Assembly: GCA_026709935.1 (NCBI GenBank)
Contig: JAPOSC010000059.1
Coordinates: forward strand, 1-64,000
Reading direction: 5' to 3'
DNA length: 64,000 bases
From: Thiotrichales bacterium
GTDB lineage: Bacteria; Pseudomonadota; Gammaproteobacteria; HK1
In this document: piece after piece, positions 54,266-63,876 of the stretch
Layout of the letters: the number at the start of each line of letters is the position of its first letter
Numbering within the stretch: position 1 is the first letter of the stretch
Program-made: the position numbers and the translations under genes
Notes under the pieces: model-generated
The model's input: only the letters and a program-made list of their open reading frames with translations
What the model was told of the DNA's origin: nothing
The model's database searches: none

Positions 54266-55585
54266 TCAGAACGCGCGGGCAGCGCCGGCAATCACGCCGT
54301 GGTTGCGGTATTCGCGGATCGGGATGTTGGAGCGATTCGACTCGAAGGTATAGCCGATCCAGGGCGCGAAGCCGCGGTATCGCAGGGACCGGTGCAGCAC
54401 CCGCACCCCGAGGTGATAGTTCCGGTCGAGCTGCCGGGTTCCAAAGAGCGGGTCCGCGGAGGCATGTCGGCGGACCTGGAGGCCGGGTGCAAGCGACACC
54501 GACAGCCCGCCGTCGAACGTTCGCGCAATCGTCGCGCCCAGGCCGATGGAGCGGCTTCCGTGGTGGTCCGTCTCCGCCTCGGTCATCTCGAACGTCGGCT
54601 CCACCCTGATCGACGTCCGGCTGTCCAGGTTGTGCAGGAAACGAGGCGTGAGCACGAGGCGCCATCCGTCGCGGTCGGGCCGTTCGTCGTGCTTTCGGTA
54701 CCCTGCGCTCAGCGCAAGCCCCAGGTGGGTCGAGCCGGACAACCGCAGACGCGTCTGCGCCCAGGGGCCAAGACTGCGCTGGTAGCCGTCGCCCCCGACC
54801 CAGCGCCGCCCCAGGCGCAGACCGCCGGACACGCTGCCCGTCTCGGTCAGACGCGAGAGCCCGATATCCCCGGAGGTCGAGACATCATTCCAGTCCGAGC
54901 GCTCGTACCACTTCGCAGCCGCGGAAGCGGCGAGCACGCCACGCAGGTCGTCGGAGATCACCGGCGAGAACGAAGCCCCGGCCGAAAGAAGCGCCCCGAC
55001 CCCGGAAGACGCCCTCGCCTCCTCACTCAGCCGGAACGGCACGCCGCCGATCAACACCTCTTCACGATCGGAACGCCGGGTCTCGGGCAGCATCGACGCG
55101 GACAGGGAGGCCGACCACCGCTTGCGCGCGTCGATTCCCCGCAGGAAGCTCTCGACCGCCGCTTCCACCGACGACGGCAGATCATCGGCGAGGGAGGTAT
55201 GGAAGTGATGCCTCGCCCGGTCGTCACGACCGGTGAGGTAGTAGGCCCGCGCAAGCTCCAGCCGCACCCGGGTCAGCTCCGGGCGCCGGGCGAGGATGGC
55301 TTCGAAATGTTCCGCGGCAGCGCCCGGATTGCCGAGCTGCATCTCGATCCGGCCGAGCAGGAAGCGCCGCTCGATCGATTCCTCCTCGTCGGAGGGACGG
55401 GCCTGGGTGAGGAACGCCCGCGCGTGCTCCAGCCGCCCGGCCCGGATGAGCATCCGGGCCGCCTGCATGTCGGTGAGCGCGGTGGGCGCTTCGGCCGTAT
55501 GGGGAACGGAATCGGCGCCCGCGCCGGCCGCGATCAGCAGTGTGAGCGCAAGCGCGGCGCGGGTAACGTGGAACAATCGGATCAA
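54266..55585 (-). CDS. Slam-type surface lipoprotein assembly modifier (TPR plus DUF560 barrel)
   Basis: Slam proteins in Neisseria move lipoproteins such as TbpB across the outer membrane. The 439-residue product has a signal peptide (RAALALTLLIAAGAGADS), an N-terminal TPR-like helical domain about residues 35-150 (ARMLIRAGRLEHARAFLTQA, FLLGRIEMQLGNPGAAAEHF, RVRLELARAYYLTGRDDRAR), and a C-terminal 14-strand-type DUF560 barrel ending FAPWIGYTFESNRSNIPIRE with a terminal aromatic F. The start is TTG 55583-55585, 5 nt after the stop of the lipoprotein gene, so the two are cotranscribed and presumably work together. Confidence 0.9.
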   Translation of the reverse strand: MIRLFHVTRAALALTLLIAAGAGADSVPHTAEAPTALTDMQAARMLIRAGRLEHARAFLTQARPSDEEESIERRFLLGRIEMQLGNPGAAAEHFEAILARRPELTRVRLELARAYYLTGRDDRARHHFHTSLADDLPSSVEAAVESFLRGIDARKRWSASLSASMLPETRRSDREEVLIGGVPFRLSEEARASSGVGALLSAGASFSPVISDDLRGVLAASAAAKWYERSDWNDVSTSGDIGLSRLTETGSVSGGLRLGRRWVGGDGYQRSLGPWAQTRLRLSGSTHLGLALSAGYRKHDERPDRDGWRLVLTPRFLHNLDSRTSIRVEPTFEMTEAETDHHGSRSIGLGATIARTFDGGLSVSLAPGLQVRRHASADPLFGTRQLDRNYHLGVRVLHRSLRYRGFAPWIGYTFESNRSNIPIREYRNHGVIAGAARAF

Positions 55586-55590
55586 TCGGC

Positions 55591-57633
55591 TTACTGCTGC
55601 TTGCGGCCGTAGAGCGATCCGATTGCCACGAGGTTGTCTTCTTCACGGGTCGCACTGAACACACCGCCGACCTCCTCCGCGGCCGGCCCATAGAACTCGC
55701 CGAGAACGTTGCCTTCGAATCCGCGAACGGACTGATCCAGCGGCGTACTGTTGTCCGTATCCATCCCGGTCAGGGTGGCGGTGAACTGACCGTTCGCGAT
55801 CTGTCCGTTGCTAATCACGAGCGAGGTGGTCTCGGCCATGAGCGACCAATCGGACTCATTCTGTCCTCGCATGTCCATTCCCGACACGGTCCCTCCGAGC
55901 GTGGCGTCGTCGAAATCTGCCATGAGACTCAAATCACCGCGCACGCGGACACGGGAATCACCCGACGGATCGTTCTGCGGATAGGAATCGGCACTGATGC
56001 CGCCATCATAGGTGGCGCTGCCTGCGGGCAGGTTGTCCGGATCGGTGCGGGCGCCAAATGTCAGGTGGTGCCGGTGGCTGAGATCCATCCATCGCTGGAA
56101 ACCGTAGGCGTGGAGATATTGGTATTCGGATTCAGAATCATCTTCGAACGAACCGGTAAGAATCCAGAGAGATCTACCGGCACCGTCCGCCTCTTTCTGG
56201 AATCCACCATCATCGTAATCGGCATCCGTGAATCCAATCGTATGCTCCTCACCGTCAGCCACATAGGTCACGTGCAGTGTCCCGGAGCCGCCAATGACAT
56301 CACCGTCGATCCATGTCTCCTTGACGTAGGCGTCGTCATCCAGCATCACGTTCAAATGGGACGAATCCCGTTGGAGGGCCGACGTTAGCGGCGCGAATCG
56401 ACCGCCCTGATCAGACAGGGCCTTGTATGTATCGTCCAGAGTCGTCGCGTAGACAGGGTCCGCCGTGCTCCGGTTCAACCCGGTCGCACTCTGTTTTCCG
56501 GCGAACACACCGAGCATCACGCGATCTTGGCGACTTGCATTCAGGACCCCACCGACCTCATTCGCAGCCGGCCCGTAGAACTCGCCGAGAATGCCACCTT
56601 CGTATCCCCTGACATTGACCCGAGACGCGACGCCGGCATCCGAGTCCATGCCGGTCAGAGTGGCCGTGAACTGGCCATCGATGATCCGACCTTCACCGAT
56701 CTCGAAATGAGTAGTCTCGGGCAATGTCTCCCATGCGTTCCAGCCGTCGTTGTTCTGATTGCGTGTTCTCGCGCGAATCCCGAGGACCATCCCCTCCAGC
56801 GTCCTGTCGTCGAAATTTGCCGTCAGACGCAGGATTCCCCTCATGCTTTCCCGGTGGCTCCGCGAAGGGTCGCTCGTGAGGTAAGTTTCGGCATCCATGG
56901 TGCCGGAGTAATTGGCAGCACCGGCGGGCAGGCCATCGGCAGCGGCGCGAACGCCGTACGACATATAGCCCCGATGCGTCACATGATCCTCCCCGTCCGC
57001 TTCTCCCCTTATTGTTGAACCCAGATCCACGTACTTGTATCGGGACGATCCTCGATTCTTGTCGGTCCCGTTGAACGCGCCGGTCACAGACCAAAACCAG
57101 TACTGGACGCCCTCGACCTCCTTGTAGAAGCTGCGGTTCCTGGGGACATAGTCGTCCGCCTCGAAATGAATCGCACTCTCGTCACTGCCAACGACATAGG
57201 TCACGTGGAATCCGTTGTTGCCATCGCTCGAGATCGTCTTGACGTGAGATTCGCTGGTCGTCGTAGTCGATGCAGCAGAGTCCCGCTCTACCAACGTGCT
57301 CAATGGCGCAAACCGGTTGGTCTCGTCAGGCAGCAACGCCGCCAGCGTACTGGCGGCGCTGCCCGCCTTGACGGGATCCTCCGTGCTCCGAGTCAGACCA
57401 TCTCCAGGCACGAGGGGCACCAGAGGCTGCTGGTCATTCATCCGGGTCGTACCGTCCTTCATCCCGTTATCGTTGCCCCCAGTCATCCCCGTATCTGTAT
57501 CTCCCGCCTTGCCGTTGCTTCCGCCGCAGCCGGAAATTGCCACCGCGAGAGCCGCAGTGATCAGGAACCCTGCATGCCGCCTGTTGTCTGACCTGCGGTC
57601 CGATCTGTTGCTTGAATTCTGGTCTGGGAACAT
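55591..57633 (-). CDS. surface lipoprotein with two tandem TbpB-like barrel repeats; candidate Slam substrate
   Basis: The 680-residue protein has a lipoprotein signal: a basic N-terminus, then ITAALAVAISGCGG with the lipobox cysteine at about residue 36. After a low-complexity Gly/Asp linker come two homologous halves. Each has a handle-like part (TLAALLPDETNRFAPLSTLV; TYKALSDQGGRFAPLTSALQ) and an eight-strand barrel ending GFEGNVLGEFYGPAAEEVGG-type sequence (VRGYEGGILGEFYGPAANEV; VRGFEGNVLGEFYGPAAEEV). This ending is typical of TbpB/FHbp-like lipoproteins. The ligand is unknown; no TonB receptor is adjacent. ATG 57631-57633 follows AGGAGGAGG. Confidence 0.9.
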   Translation of the reverse strand: MFPDQNSSNRSDRRSDNRRHAGFLITAALAVAISGCGGSNGKAGDTDTGMTGGNDNGMKDGTTRMNDQQPLVPLVPGDGLTRSTEDPVKAGSAASTLAALLPDETNRFAPLSTLVERDSAASTTTTSESHVKTISSDGNNGFHVTYVVGSDESAIHFEADDYVPRNRSFYKEVEGVQYWFWSVTGAFNGTDKNRGSSRYKYVDLGSTIRGEADGEDHVTHRGYMSYGVRAAADGLPAGAANYSGTMDAETYLTSDPSRSHRESMRGILRLTANFDDRTLEGMVLGIRARTRNQNNDGWNAWETLPETTHFEIGEGRIIDGQFTATLTGMDSDAGVASRVNVRGYEGGILGEFYGPAANEVGGVLNASRQDRVMLGVFAGKQSATGLNRSTADPVYATTLDDTYKALSDQGGRFAPLTSALQRDSSHLNVMLDDDAYVKETWIDGDVIGGSGTLHVTYVADGEEHTIGFTDADYDDGGFQKEADGAGRSLWILTGSFEDDSESEYQYLHAYGFQRWMDLSHRHHLTFGARTDPDNLPAGSATYDGGISADSYPQNDPSGDSRVRVRGDLSLMADFDDATLGGTVSGMDMRGQNESDWSLMAETTSLVISNGQIANGQFTATLTGMDTDNSTPLDQSVRGFEGNVLGEFYGPAAEEVGGVFSATREEDNLVAIGSLYGRKQQ

Positions 57634-57701
57634 TGAATCGCCTCCTCCTGATGGTCGGTTTCAGCCCATGTGTGCCTCCTCTGTAAGCGAATATACGGGA
57701 A

Positions 57702-57742
57702 ATTGCCCTTGAAGCAAGGTCGATTAGCCTCAAAAGGGCAAT
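57702..57742. promoter_or_regulatory. 9-bp inverted repeat between lipoprotein and HTH genes, candidate operator
   Basis: ATTGCCCTT (57702-57710) and AAGGGCAAT (57734-57742), 23 bp apart, in the divergent gap between the Slam-substrate lipoprotein (start 57633) and the HTH protein (start about 57783). A dimer of the HTH protein is an obvious candidate ligand, but this is inferred from position only. Confidence 0.5.
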
Positions 57743-57782
57743 GAGCCCCATCAACGCGGTCGAACTATCGGAAGCTTCGACC

Positions 57783-58475
57783 ATGGAGGATCTACTCAGG
57801 GAAATCTTGCAGGCCGTCAGGCGACGCGGCTGGTCCGCTCGGCAGGCGTCGATGAAGGCCGTGGGCACGCCCGAGCTCATTCGGGACATGCGTCGGGGGC
57901 GCGTACCCTCGGTGGAGCGTTTCCGCGCGTTGTGCGAGGTGCTCGGTCTGGAGTTCTACGTCGGCCCTCCTCGCAGCGAGAGTCCGCTGAAGCCGGAGCG
58001 ACTCCAGCAGGCAATAAGACTCGCGGAGGATATGAGCGAACGTTCGCCCAACGGGCTGACCCATGCGGAGAAAGCGAGGGTCGCGAGTTCGGCCTACGTG
58101 CTCATGAGCGGGAGAATCAAGGACGGGAGCAAGGCTGGAGAACAGATTTCCGATGGACTACTCCCAGACGCGCAGTCAAACCAACGCTCCATATCCTCCA
58201 CATCTCCGATATTCCTCGCATTCCTGGAATTCCTGGAGTTCCTGGAATCCCGAGAGGCCAAAGAGGCCAAAAAGGCCAGAAAGACTCGGAAAGCCAGGAA
58301 GGCCCAGAGGGCGCGAGAATCCTTGAGATCCGTGGCACTTCAGGAACGCCAGAACCCCAGTACCCCGGTAATAACCGTAACCCCTGTAATCCCTGGAGCT
58401 CCGGAGCCCTGGAGTCCGGAGTATTCTCGACTTCACGGGAAGCTTCGGGTGTCCCGGGACCATGGGGATTCCTGA
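57783..58475 (+). CDS. helix-turn-helix protein with low-complexity C-terminal half
   Basis: Residues 1-65 look like a Cro/CI-type DNA-binding domain (MEDLLREILQAVRRRGWSAR, QASMKAVGTPELIRDMRRGR, VPSVERFRALCEVLGLEFYV). A helical part follows to about residue 125. The rest is low complexity, including FLAFLEFLEFLESREAKEAK and KARKTRKARKAQRARE, produced by short GGAATTCCT-like repeats. The start is placed at ATG 57783 (GGAAG upstream); an ATG at 57741 lies inside an inverted repeat and is an alternative. It is divergent from the lipoprotein-Slam operon and may regulate it. The C-terminal half may be a recent expansion or out of frame. Confidence 0.72.
   Translation: MEDLLREILQAVRRRGWSARQASMKAVGTPELIRDMRRGRVPSVERFRALCEVLGLEFYVGPPRSESPLKPERLQQAIRLAEDMSERSPNGLTHAEKARVASSAYVLMSGRIKDGSKAGEQISDGLLPDAQSNQRSISSTSPIFLAFLEFLEFLESREAKEAKKARKTRKARKAQRARESLRSVALQERQNPSTPVITVTPVIPGAPEPWSPEYSRLHGKLRVSRDHGDS
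58195..58470. repeat. low-complexity short-period repeat tract
   Basis: Degenerate 9-12 bp units around CCTGGAATTCCTGGAGTT, AGGCCAAAGAGGCCAAAAAGG and CCCTGGAGCTCCGGAGCC. In the HTH frame it gives FLEFLEFLES and KARK runs. In the next plus frame it gives a collagen-like G-x-y run (GIPGVPGIPRGQRGQKGQ), and the minus strand gives GIPGTPGIPG. Confidence 0.8.
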
Positions 58476-60536: not shown

Positions 60537-61721
60537 TCAGGGCGCCAGCGCCTGCGCGAGCGTCCGTGCGTTGTGGCGCATCATGTCGAGATACGTTGGC
60601 GCGGGGCCTTCGGGACCGGAGAGCGCGCCGGGATAGAGCGTGCCGCCCACCGTGGCGCCCGTCTCGTCCGCGATGCGCTTCAGGAGCCGGGGATCGGCGA
60701 TGTTCTCCAGGAACACGGCGCGGATGCCCTCGCTCCGGATGAGCTCGATCAGGCGCACGACATCCTTTGCGGACGCCTCGGATTCCGTGCTGATTCCCTG
60801 AGGCGCGATGAAGGCGAGCCCGTAGTCGCGGCCGAAGTACTGGAATGCGTCATGTGACGTGACGATGGTGCGAGCGCTCTCGGGAAGTTTGGCAAGCAGG
60901 CCGCCGATCTCGGCGTCGAGCGCCTCGATCTCGGCCACGTAGGCAGCGCGATTCCGGTAGAACACGCTTGCGTGGTCCGGATCGATCTTCGCAAGAGCCG
61001 CCGTCACGTTGTCCACGTAGGTCACTGCGTTTCGCAGGCTCTGCCAGGCATGCGGATCGAATGCGCCGTGGTGATGTCCGTGGTGTCCGTCGTGCTCATC
61101 GTGCCCTTCGTGCCCTTCGTGCCCTTCGTGTGCGTCATGCTCAGCGTGCTTGTCATGCTCGTCACGCCCATCGTGCTCGTCGTGCCCTTCATCCTCGTCA
61201 TGCTCGGCGTGTTCGTCGTGCTCGTCATGCCCATCGTGCCCGGTGTGCTTGTCATGCCCGTCATGCCCGTCATGCTCGTCGTGCCCGTCGTGCTCGGCAT
61301 GTTCGTCATGCTCGTCATCATGCTCTTCGTGGCCATCCCCGTGATCGTCCTCGAAGGTGATCGGCTCGATCCCCGCGGTGGCGACCACGTGCACGCCGCC
61401 GAAATCCGCCGATTCGATCAGCCGGTCCAACCACCCCTCGAAGTCGAGGCCGTTGACCACGAGGACATCCGCCTCGCTCACCGCGCGGGCGGCGGTCGGG
61501 GTCGGTCGGTACACATGCGCATCTCCGTCCGGCCCGACCAGCGTGGTGACCGCCACGTGTTCGCCGCCGATACGCGACACCATGTCGCCGAGAATCGAGA
61601 AGGTGGCGACCACCCGAATCGGCGCGTCGGACTCGGCCGATGCCGGGGCTAGGACCGCTGCGGTCGCCGCCACAGCCGCCGCCACGGCGGTGGATTTGAG
61701 CAGGGCTCTGCGTGTGATCAT
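60537..61721 (-). CDS. znuA: zinc ABC transporter substrate-binding protein ZnuA with long His/Asp-rich loop
   Basis: A periplasmic zinc-binding protein (cluster A-I). Of 394 residues the first about 30 form an export signal with a twin-arginine-like start (MITRRALLKSTAVAAAVAAT). The zinc ligands are visible: H in GPDGDAHVYRPTPTAARAV, H in GAFDPHAWQSLRNAV, H in VTSHDAFQYFGRDYG, and a late acidic residue. Between about 125 and 225 is a loop of repeated GHDEH/EHDGHDEHD units, far longer than the usual His-rich loop. Start ATG 61719-61721 with GGAGG. It is last in zur-peptide-znuC-znuB-znuA; znuB ends 16 nt upstream. Confidence 0.94.
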   Translation of the reverse strand: MITRRALLKSTAVAAAVAATAAVLAPASAESDAPIRVVATFSILGDMVSRIGGEHVAVTTLVGPDGDAHVYRPTPTAARAVSEADVLVVNGLDFEGWLDRLIESADFGGVHVVATAGIEPITFEDDHGDGHEEHDDEHDEHAEHDGHDEHDGHDGHDKHTGHDGHDEHDEHAEHDEDEGHDEHDGRDEHDKHAEHDAHEGHEGHEGHDEHDGHHGHHHGAFDPHAWQSLRNAVTYVDNVTAALAKIDPDHASVFYRNRAAYVAEIEALDAEIGGLLAKLPESARTIVTSHDAFQYFGRDYGLAFIAPQGISTESEASAKDVVRLIELIRSEGIRAVFLENIADPRLLKRIADETGATVGGTLYPGALSGPEGPAPTYLDMMRHNARTLAQALAP

Positions 61722-61737
61722 TGAGAGATAACCTCCG

Positions 61738-62607
61738 TCAGGCTTCAAGATGGCGTCGCACGGCGACGCGCGCGGCAAGGCTGCCCACCGGCCCGAGAGC
61801 CAGCGATATCCCGTAGACGAGACCCGCCACCAGGATGATGGCCGGCCCGGAAGGCAGGCTGAAGTGGTAGGAAAGAAGCAGGCCACCGACGCACGCGATC
61901 AGGGCGATGCCGACCGCGACCGCGATCAGCGCCCCGATCTGTGCGGCCCAGAAACGCGCGGCGGCGGCCGGCAGGATCATGATGCCGACGGCCATCAGCG
62001 TACCGAGCGCATGGAACCCGCCGACGAGGTTCAGCACCACCAGCGCAAGGAAGGTGAAGTGCGTCATGGCGCTGAGCCCGCTGACCGAGCGCAGGAACTG
62101 CGGGTCCGCGCATTCGAGGACCAGCGCCCGGAACAGAGCCGCCAGCGTCAGCACCGAGACGCTCGCGATGGAGCACAGAAGGAGCAGCGCCGCGTCGTCG
62201 AGGGCAAGGACGGTGCCGAACAGGACGTGCATCAGGTCCACATTGCTGCCGCGCATGGAAACGATCACCACCCCGAGCGCCAGCGAGATGAGGTAGAAGG
62301 CGGCAAGGCTGGCATCTTCGCGCAGGGCGGTGGCGCGGGAGACGAAGCCGGCGAGCAGTGCCACCGCCATGCCTGCCACCAGTCCCCCGACAGTCATCGC
62401 GCCGAGGGACAGTCCGGCCACCAGATAACCCACGGCGGCACCCGGCAGGATCGCATGGGCCATCGCGTCGCCGGTCAGACTCATGCGGCGCAGCATCAGG
62501 AAGACCCCCACCGGGGTGGCGCCGACCGAGATGGCGACACAGCCGAGAAGCGCGCGGCGCATGAAGCCGAAGTCCGCGAACGGCTGGACCACCGCCTCCC
62601 ACATCAT
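61738..62607 (-). CDS. znuB: zinc ABC transporter permease ZnuB
   Basis: A 289-residue inner-membrane permease of the ABC-3 family with about eight helices. Conserved: FMRRALLGCVAISVGATPVG, FLMLRRMSLTGDAMAHAILP, GAAVGYLVAGLSLGAM and FLALVVLNLVGGFHALGTLM, then MILPAAAARFWA. Start ATG 62605-62607 overlaps the znuC stop (ATGA); an adjacent second ATG is possible. Works with ZnuC and ZnuA to import zinc. Confidence 0.95.
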   Translation of the reverse strand: MMWEAVVQPFADFGFMRRALLGCVAISVGATPVGVFLMLRRMSLTGDAMAHAILPGAAVGYLVAGLSLGAMTVGGLVAGMAVALLAGFVSRATALREDASLAAFYLISLALGVVIVSMRGSNVDLMHVLFGTVLALDDAALLLLCSIASVSVLTLAALFRALVLECADPQFLRSVSGLSAMTHFTFLALVVLNLVGGFHALGTLMAVGIMILPAAAARFWAAQIGALIAVAVGIALIACVGGLLLSYHFSLPSGPAIILVAGLVYGISLALGPVGSLAARVAVRRHLEA

Positions 62608-63347
62608 GCGGCTTGCCGCCCGCAGGTGTGCGGAGGGCCGGCACAGGCTTCGCACATCTGGCGGGCGCGGAACTGGTTCTCGGTCGTGAGGACCTGCGCG
62701 GTCGGCCCGTGTGCCACGAGCTCGCGCGCCAGCATCAGGGTTTGCGGGAAATGGGTGCGCACCGTATCCAGATCGTGCGAGACGGCCAGCACCGTGCGGC
62801 CTTCGCCGTGCCAGCGCCGCACCACGCCGATCAGATCGGCGGTAGTCCGGGCGTCGACCGCAGAGAACGGTTCGTCCAGGAGCACGAGCCGGGCGTCCTG
62901 CAACAGAAGCCGGGCGAAGAGCACGCGCTGCATCTGTCCGATCGACAGCGAACCGATGGGCCGGGACTCGAACCCGACCAACCCCACGGCGGAAATCGCA
63001 TCGGCGACGCGCGCACGATTGGCGGCGCGCAGATGTCCGAAGGCGCCGATCTCGCGCCACAGCCCCATCGCGACGAGATCCACGACCGACAACGGAAACG
63101 ACCGGTCGATGTCCGACTGCTGCGGGAGATAGCCGACCTCGCGGCGCGCGAGCGACCCGAAGGAAATCCGCCCCCCGAGCGGGCGAATCGCTCCGATCAC
63201 CCCCTTCAGCAGCGTGGACTTGCCCGCGCCGTTGGGGCCGACGATGGCGGTCAGAGCGCCTTCGGCGATCTCGCCGTCGAGCCGATACACGGCGGGCGTC
63301 CGGTCATAGCCCAGGGTCAGATCCTGGAATGAAAGGGCGTAGTTCAT
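62604..63347 (-). CDS. znuC: zinc ABC transporter ATPase ZnuC
   Basis: A 247-residue ABC ATPase starting at ATG 63345-63347 (MNYALSFQDLTLGYDRTPAV). Walker A VGPNGAGKSTLLKGV, Q-loop GYLPQQSDIDRSFPLSV, signature LSIGQMQRVLFARLLLQ (LSxGQ), Walker B LVLLDEPFSAVDA, H-loop AVSHDLDTVR. The C-terminus has C and H residues (RARQMCEACAGPPHTCGRQ) that could bind zinc. The start overlaps the stop of the 44-residue peptide gene (ATGA). Confidence 0.95.
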   Translation of the reverse strand: MNYALSFQDLTLGYDRTPAVYRLDGEIAEGALTAIVGPNGAGKSTLLKGVIGAIRPLGGRISFGSLARREVGYLPQQSDIDRSFPLSVVDLVAMGLWREIGAFGHLRAANRARVADAISAVGLVGFESRPIGSLSIGQMQRVLFARLLLQDARLVLLDEPFSAVDARTTADLIGVVRRWHGEGRTVLAVSHDLDTVRTHFPQTLMLARELVAHGPTAQVLTTENQFRARQMCEACAGPPHTCGRQAA

Positions 63348-63478
63348 GCCCCCCCCGGGGCGGAGGTCGCCCAGAAGAACCCGGCCCAGAGGGCGGCCAG
63401 CACGAGCGCCGCCCCGACGAGGCGCTGAGCGGCGCCCGCCGCGAGAAGCCGGAACCAAGGGGCGAATCGCTTCGTCAC
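63344..63478 (-). CDS. 44-residue single-pass membrane peptide within the zinc operon
   Basis: Begins at GTG 63476-63478, overlapping the zur stop (GTGA), and ends at TGA overlapping the znuC ATG (ATGA). The peptide reads MTKRFAPWFRLLAAGAAQRL then VGAALVLAALWAGFFWATSA and PGGA: a basic N-terminus and one hydrophobic helix of about 20 residues. Exact 4-nt overlaps on both sides argue that it is translated, as part of a zur-to-znuB coupled message. I know of no named family. Roles in stabilising the transporter or sensing are open. A weakness is that a frame linking two genes this way can arise by chance. Confidence 0.6.
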   Translation of the reverse strand: MTKRFAPWFRLLAAGAAQRLVGAALVLAALWAGFFWATSAPGGA

Positions 63479-63876
63479 GCCCGGCTCTCGGCCGATCCAC
63501 AGGCGCCGCACCGTCCATGAACCTCGATGACGTGACGCATCGGCGCAAACCCGGACTTCCCGGCGATGCCGGACAGCGCGGTCAGAAGATCAGTGGACGA
63601 GTTCTCTTCGACCACACCACAGTCGGTGCAAACCCAGAGAATCGGGGCGTCGCGATGACGTTCGCACTGACAAGCGACGAAGGCGTTGAGCGATTCGAGT
63701 CGGTGCACCTTCCCGCGCTCCATCAGAGCCGCAAGCGCCCGGTAGATCGTCGGTGGCGCCAGACGCGGATGCTCTTCGCGCAGGCATCGGAGCACATCGT
63801 AGGCGGACATCGGCACGCGGCAGCTTCGCAACACGTCCAGCACCTGCGCCTGCATCCGTTGTCCGCGCATGGACAT
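63475..63876 (-). CDS. zur: zinc uptake regulator Zur (Fur family)
   Basis: A 133-residue Fur-family repressor. Winged-helix domain: VPMSAYDVLRCLREEHPRLA, PPTIYRALAALMERGKVHRL. Dimerisation/metal domain: FVACQCERHRDAPILWVCTD, CGVVEENSSTDLL, and HGRCGACGSAE with the CxxC pair of the structural zinc site. The place at the head of a znu operon identifies it as Zur rather than Fur. A palindrome resembling a Zur box lies about 35-50 bp upstream, so it probably represses its own operon when zinc is sufficient. Confidence 0.93.
   Translation of the reverse strand: MSMRGQRMQAQVLDVLRSCRVPMSAYDVLRCLREEHPRLAPPTIYRALAALMERGKVHRLESLNAFVACQCERHRDAPILWVCTDCGVVEENSSTDLLTALSGIAGKSGFAPMRHVIEVHGRCGACGSAESRA

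Follow-up and report, generated by a model that had tools for sequence, protein, structure and literature searches.

A Slam gene paired with a double-lobed TbpB-like lipoprotein gene in a gammaproteobacterial genome with no detectable TonB receptor

What does a TbpB-like lipoprotein do in a bacterium that seems to lack any TonB receptor to which it could deliver a ligand? The question is raised by two adjoining genes on a 64,000-nt stretch of DNA (the window; positions 1 to 64,000 of the forward strand of contig JAPOSC010000059.1, Thiotrichales bacterium assembly GCA_026709935.1), one for a double-lobed TbpB-like lipoprotein and one for a surface lipoprotein assembly modulator (Slam), the outer-membrane protein of the type XI secretion system (T11SS). 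An earlier sequence-only reading had taken them for a clear substrate-translocator pair outside the Neisseria/Moraxella setting and, as it saw no neighbouring TonB receptor, had regarded a standard transferrin system as unlikely. The present analysis indicates that the two genes probably form a type XI secretion pair for the surface display of a binding lipoprotein that works without such a receptor.

The lipoprotein gene (55591..57633, minus strand, as are all features of the pair) starts with ATG and encodes 680 aa. The protein passes PF01298 (TbpB_B_D) in two stretches (E=1.4e-20, 74.5 bits, cut-off 26), and PF08794 (FHBP_C) also matches its second lobe (34.4 bits, cut-off 28.1). Residues 1-35 (57529..57633) form a signal peptide whose lipobox, AISGC at residues 32-36, places the predicted cleavage before Cys36, and this Cys is invariant in three aligned orthologues. 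The Cys36 to be lipidated opens a flexible Gly/Asp/Asn-rich tether (residues 36-79, 57397..57528), the low-confidence and mostly unstructured start of the structure model. An N-lobe (residues 80-383, 56485..57396) and a C-lobe (residues 386-680, 55594..56478) follow, each with a handle and an eight-strand barrel; the Pfam barrel matches cover 56491-56925 and 55624-56025, respectively. The two lobes are supported by Pfam, the model and the fold comparisons described below. Residues 80-381 and 386-680 are 39% identical (E=1e-62), by which the two lobes are read as a tandem duplication within the gene. The TbpB-like double barrel seen in the sequence-only reading was thus recovered with profiles and by comparison of the lobes.

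The Slam gene (54266..55585) starts with TTG and encodes 439 aa. Its identity, which had also been proposed earlier, follows from PF04575, tetratricopeptide repeats (TPRs), the alignment and the tree. The C-terminal barrel domain (residues 209-439, 54269..54961) passes PF04575 (SlipAM, DUF560) with 65.4 bits (cut-off 22) and ends in F. The N-terminal, periplasmic TPR region (residues about 39-142, 55160..55471) matches TPR_19, TPR_2 and TPR_14 above their cut-offs, and TPR_Slam with 24.8, below its cut-off of 35.2. By these domains the protein belongs to the Slam/T11SS outer-membrane family, and translocation of a cargo is predicted.

Only 5 nt (55586..55590) lie between the stop codon of the lipoprotein gene and the TTG of slam, exactly the distance given in the sequence-only reading. 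The pair was found in the same order in two other metagenome-assembled genomes (MAGs). In G003 ('Gammaproteobacteria bacterium jk18x1bzbins.85', locus L015) the lipoprotein has 646 aa, the gap is 5 nt and the Slam is 67% identical to that of the window; in G012 ('Immundisolibacterales bacterium APA_bin_69', locus L018) the corresponding values are 611 aa, 4 nt and 57%. Genome comparison placed the window bacterium in the same genus as G003 and in the same family as G012. The genes around the pair are unrelated between the three genomes. Since the pair is kept while its flanks differ, the cargo and slam genes stay together as a unit; because the E-values lie many orders of magnitude below 1 and the pair recurs in two further genomes, the pairing is not due to chance. 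These relatives were found by means of the Slam alignment, as a scan of the genome contigs with the lipoprotein alone returned none. The Pfam domains in both genes and the retention of the pair with a 4-5 nt gap bear out its description as substrate and translocator.

In a tree of the single lobes, the C-lobes of the window and G003 grouped together (90/91), while the N-lobes were not resolved and the C-lobes of G012 were placed elsewhere. On these two grounds a single ancestral duplication for all double-lobed relatives was not adopted; the lobes may go back to one duplication or to several.

An AlphaFold2 model of the mature lipoprotein, built from a 7-row alignment, showed the two lobes, each with a handle and eight-strand barrel, at a mean predicted local distance difference test score (pLDDT) of 69.8 and a predicted template modelling score (pTM) of 0.56. 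The top matches of a Foldseek search against the PDB were TbpB structures spanning both lobes (E about 1e-15). With VIA-align, the TbpB C-lobe matched the model with Z 17.5 and a root-mean-square deviation (rmsd) of 3.6 over 213 residues, followed by HpuA (Z 15.0), haemophilin (14.7), and fHbp and NHBA (about 14). Whole TbpB gave an rmsd of 17-19, and the orientation between the lobes is unreliable. The predicted fold thus includes an eight-stranded C-terminal TbpB_B_D barrel, and the structure prediction that had been proposed as a check of the TbpB-like assignment came out in its favour.

TbpB proper has a TonB-dependent receptor as its partner. The window genome (3.78 Mb, order Immundisolibacterales, 95.9% complete) contains no match to either the TonB-receptor barrel PF00593 or the plug PF07715, which confirms the earlier remark on the missing neighbouring receptor and extends it to the whole genome. 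At least one plug was found in 13 of the 17 family members. Two complete, single-contig, Slam-bearing relatives, G002 and G005, have no plug match, and G002 (scanned as G064) has no barrel match either. Within the limits of completeness, a TbpA-like partnership is excluded since the genome has no TonB-receptor matches. A TbpA/TbpB-type iron system is very unlikely in this bacterium, in line with the doubt already cast on a standard transferrin system.

How the pair may work can be drawn from the Slam1-TbpB system, in which translocation has been reconstituted and the cargo is exported by Sec, lipidated and held unfolded by Skp during its passage, whereupon Slam reads its C-terminus and translocates it for folding outside (PMC9090332). 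The cargo and translocator genes of this route are both present in the window genome. The lipoprotein would be exported by Sec and lipidated at Cys36, and would cross the periplasm unfolded; Slam would then recognise the C-terminal barrel, so that the C-lobe is the putative Slam-targeting end by analogy with published cargos (PMC12282271, PMC9090332). After passing through the Slam barrel the lipoprotein would fold and anchor on the outer leaflet. The N-lobe, by analogy with the effector part of TbpB (PMC12282271), would face outward and bind the ligand.

The closest known counterpart is TbpB with Slam1 (Neisseria, Pasteurellaceae). There, too, the cargo has two handle-plus-barrel lobes, its partner combines TPRs with a barrel, and full-length TbpB covers both lobes of our model. 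The window system differs in that its genome has no matches to TbpA or any other TonB receptor, its lobes are 39% identical to each other, and slam lies directly downstream of the cargo gene in an operon-like pair. Two- to three-lobed cargos are known from Sphingomonas and Psychrobacter (Grossman 2025, PMC12282271), and they likewise carry at least two handle-barrel pairs per Slam-linked cargo; however, their N-termini bear Pro-Thr(-Asp) repeats and their disordered loops are long (PMC12282271), whereas the window lipoprotein has a tether of about 43 residues only and a TbpB-like layout. Slams have been described throughout the Proteobacteria (Hooda 2017, PMC5449769), and repeated-lobe cargos have been published too, so the setting outside Neisseria and Moraxella is less surprising than the sequence-only reading implied; the pair joins the known type XI secretion family as a new member. 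A third comparison is with fHbp, NilC and PmSLP, Slam cargos that are not known to be tied to TonB uptake (see also PMC9100927, PMC12080921). As is predicted for the window protein, they are lipoproteins of the cell surface that have a barrel of the Slam-cargo type and bind a ligand, but they are not known to have a repeated lobe pair of this kind, and their ligands or hosts are known.

Since no TonB-dependent receptor was detected, there would be no handover of iron or haem to a TonB-type importer, and in the absence of such a partner the likeliest role is attachment or masking. The window bacterium is probably a marine-sponge symbiont, judging from its relatives: Aplysina aerophoba is among the seven sponge hosts in PMC8163846, and from the code we infer that APA in the name of G012 stands for this species. 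The lipoprotein may serve in attachment to, or masking from, a molecule of the host sponge or of the matrix, by analogy with fHbp, NilC and PmSLP. We lean towards such an adhesin-like role with modest confidence.

Three other explanations have to be weighed. The closest folds, TbpB, HpuA and the haemophilins, would suit a protein that acquires metal or haem in concert with a TonB receptor, a zinc ATP-binding cassette (ABC) importer and a Fur-family regulator are encoded 3-6 kb off in the window, and 120 of 185 published Slam-lipoprotein clusters hold TonB receptor genes (PMC5449769). However, neither TonB barrels nor plugs were found in the genome and the zinc genes are absent from beside the pair in G003 and G012, which makes this explanation highly improbable. 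It is least probable that the lipoprotein stays periplasmic and its adjacency to slam is incidental. The genome does contain a second Slam gene with no cargo gene beside it, so linkage is not universal, but the pair is kept in three genomes with a gap of 4-5 nt amid differing flanks, proven Slam cargos have the same type of fold, and cargo-type barrels co-occur with Slam.

The alternative that comes nearest is a TonB-free protein that captures a soluble ligand or nutrient, a glycan for instance, and so concentrates substrate at the surface. PMC9100927 reports that NilC, a T11SS cargo, promotes colonisation of host epithelia that express glycans, and our data do not separate substrate binding from adhesion. 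On the other hand, the pair has no linked gene for a transporter or a glycan enzyme and its neighbours vary between genomes, and we regard such a binder as unlikely, if less so than the two preceding explanations. Surface display of a receptor-free binding lipoprotein thus accounts best for the pair.

Several points weigh against this interpretation. The evidence for the pair is wholly computational. The lipoprotein scores 66.8 bits with NCBIfam NF041636 ('Slam-dependent surface lipoprotein'), below the cut-off of 80; on its profile match it appears to be of the same kind as the NF041636 proteins, outside that curated equivalog. The structure model is of moderate quality with uncertain lobe placement, and a TonB receptor could be encoded in the 4% that the assembly lacks. 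That this MAG lives in a sponge is deduced from its relatives, and the adhesin-like role, reached by exclusion and analogy, is the least certain part.

Upstream of the lipoprotein ATG, at a distance of 7 nt, lies the Shine-Dalgarno-like AGGAGGAGG (57641..57649, minus strand), read from the sequence and rated good. The divergent intergenic region contains a perfect 9-nt inverted repeat, ATTGCCCTT-N23-AAGGGCAAT (57702..57742), possibly an operator, which overlaps both the gap to the lipoprotein gene and the start of a divergent open reading frame (ORF; 57741-58475, plus strand). This ORF looks helix-turn-helix-like by eye and is possibly a regulator; it matched no Pfam family and had no PHROGs hit that was credible, and a sigma-70 promoter scan of the region returned no match. 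Farther on, a zinc uptake cluster (60537-63876, minus strand) encodes ZnuA, an ABC-3 permease, an ATPase and a Fur-family regulator; its ZnuA has a long His/Asp-rich repeat, with a tandem repeat at 61088-61316. Zinc uptake as the function of the pair was rejected, as znu/zur-like genes are not beside it in G003 and G012.

Is the window lipoprotein the only cargo of its genome? A profile of the C-terminal barrel (A4; 22 cargos, 8 rows of which are from the window genome) gave 24 matches in 23 genes of this genome, all with E <= 2.6e-11, and 15 of the 23 genes are absent from the profile. They lie on contigs C2, C4, C8, C10, C15, C19, C34, C45, C46, C48, C54, C55 and C68 of the window genome (G000; loci L054, L055, L147-L149, L178-L188). 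The Slam-bearing relatives have two to four such genes each, although the excess over them may be overstated as the profile leans towards the window genome. Cargo barrels were detected in all five family genomes with a clear Slam and in one of the 12 without (a weak match; Fisher p 0.001), and in none of the 38 other genomes of the class. Most cargos of the repertoire type are missed by Pfam. For cargo barrels from other MAGs, the models are of the fHbp/TbpB type (Z about 14); because OmpX also reaches 13.3 against these models, the barrel fold alone is not specific. A profile of the other-MAG cargos aligns with the window C-lobe through its last residue (hhalign 95%, E=3e-8).

A lipoprotein signal is in frame in 19 of the 23 repertoire ORFs; in three a stop or a break in the frame parts it from the body, and a contig end truncates one ORF. 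Ten of the genes start with a near-identical signal peptide (..ARTSLWASLAIAASLGLAGCGGSS), whose DNA is about 95% identical and falls to about 40% directly past the lipobox. At identical degenerate residues the same codon is used in 94% of cases in the signal peptide and in 29% in the bodies. Since this codon identity does not readily come from selection on the protein alone, exchange or re-use of a start cassette is suggested, a sign that the repertoire diversified as mosaics. In five cases the gene that follows a cassette gene has a signal peptide of a second shared type (MK(H/Y)(A/S)HIGL..). The third-position GC content (GC3) of the repertoire genes is mostly about 0.55, compared with about 0.88 in the housekeeping genes of the window, and many of them are close to contig ends, as repeats that break assemblies would be. 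The window lipoprotein, with its different signal peptide, its own Slam and a GC3 of 0.70, is outside the mosaic set and appears to be a specialised member, with its own translocator, of a large surface-lipoprotein repertoire. In L148:4970-5400 (G000:C8), the body is out of frame with the signal peptide and a seven-G run is located just past the lipobox codon, which may reflect phase variation, a pseudogene or an assembly error. L186:3500-4500 (G000:C34) and L055:7525-8738 (G000:C45) are also interrupted past the signal peptide, in one case through an in-frame stop and in the other through a change of frame. G-run phase variation was not supported as a general feature of the repertoire, as C8 alone has a seven-G run at its frame break.

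The second Slam of the genome (L014:7349-8944, G000:C26) has PF04575 and TPRs like the window Slam, to which it is about 30% identical. It is an orphan with no adjoining cargo gene and is flanked by genes that look, by eye, like those of an oligopeptide ABC transporter on one side and like pcnB on the other. In the tree it stands apart from the window Slam in a separate clade of 47 (99/95), with members from Alpha- and Gammaproteobacteria, Acidobacteriota, Nitrospirota, Myxococcota, Binatota and Cyanobacteriota. Most of them end in ..VRQF or similar and often adjoin cargos that end in GAFGA. Many of their records bear names that we take to be those of sponge MAG studies, which PMC8163846 supports in part. 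L104, L118, L138, L128, L099 and L135 also have Slams; the labels of their MAGs are Nitrospirales, Bryobacterales, Binatia and Deltaproteobacteria, and a GAFGA-ending lipoprotein is encoded near several of these Slams. The Slams of L086 (Chloroflexota) and L109 (Acidobacteriota) nest tightly in Rhodospirillales and were rejected as evidence of transfer; their contigs are likely misbinned. Two family members without cargo barrels, G010 (L053:6717-8801) and G014 (L052:6991-9811), have weak SlipAM-like TPR-barrel proteins beside a FecR-domain gene, another pairing of a Slam-like protein.

The cyanobacterial Slams (L088, L120, L121) belong to Ca. Synechococcus spongiarum and a related MAG. A binning error is unlikely here because synteny is kept in three genomes; the neighbours are presumably of the ilvC and clpP types, as judged by eye. 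In the family of this cyanobacterium, 7 of 201 genomes have a Slam, namely 7 of 10 within the genus and none of the 191 sampled elsewhere (Fisher p=5e-11, with genomes treated as independent). The searchable literature, a scope that left aside subscription papers and preprints, calls Slam/T11SS proteobacterial and mentions neither sponges nor Cyanobacteria.

These observations, which are newer than the pair itself, come from beyond the window and are based on MAGs and profiles; they allow a wider reading that we consider evenly balanced between true and false. The pair would be part of a surface-coat system with two Slams, no detectable TonB receptors and about 23 mosaic barrel lipoproteins, including five tandem pairs, and the second Slam clade would have spread across phyla in sponge microbiomes, including the Ca. 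Synechococcus spongiarum lineage and not its sampled relatives, so that type XI secretion would be a shared trait of adaptation to sponges.

With the pair, Slam-dependent display would reach an order for which the searchable papers describe no example, and a TbpB-like cargo whose cell has no detectable TonB receptors sets the TbpB fold apart from the import of iron. Should the wider reading be true, a diversifying repertoire of surface-exposed proteins would lie at the interface between symbiont and sponge, and a secretion system so far described as proteobacterial would be a cross-phylum trait in sponge microbiomes.

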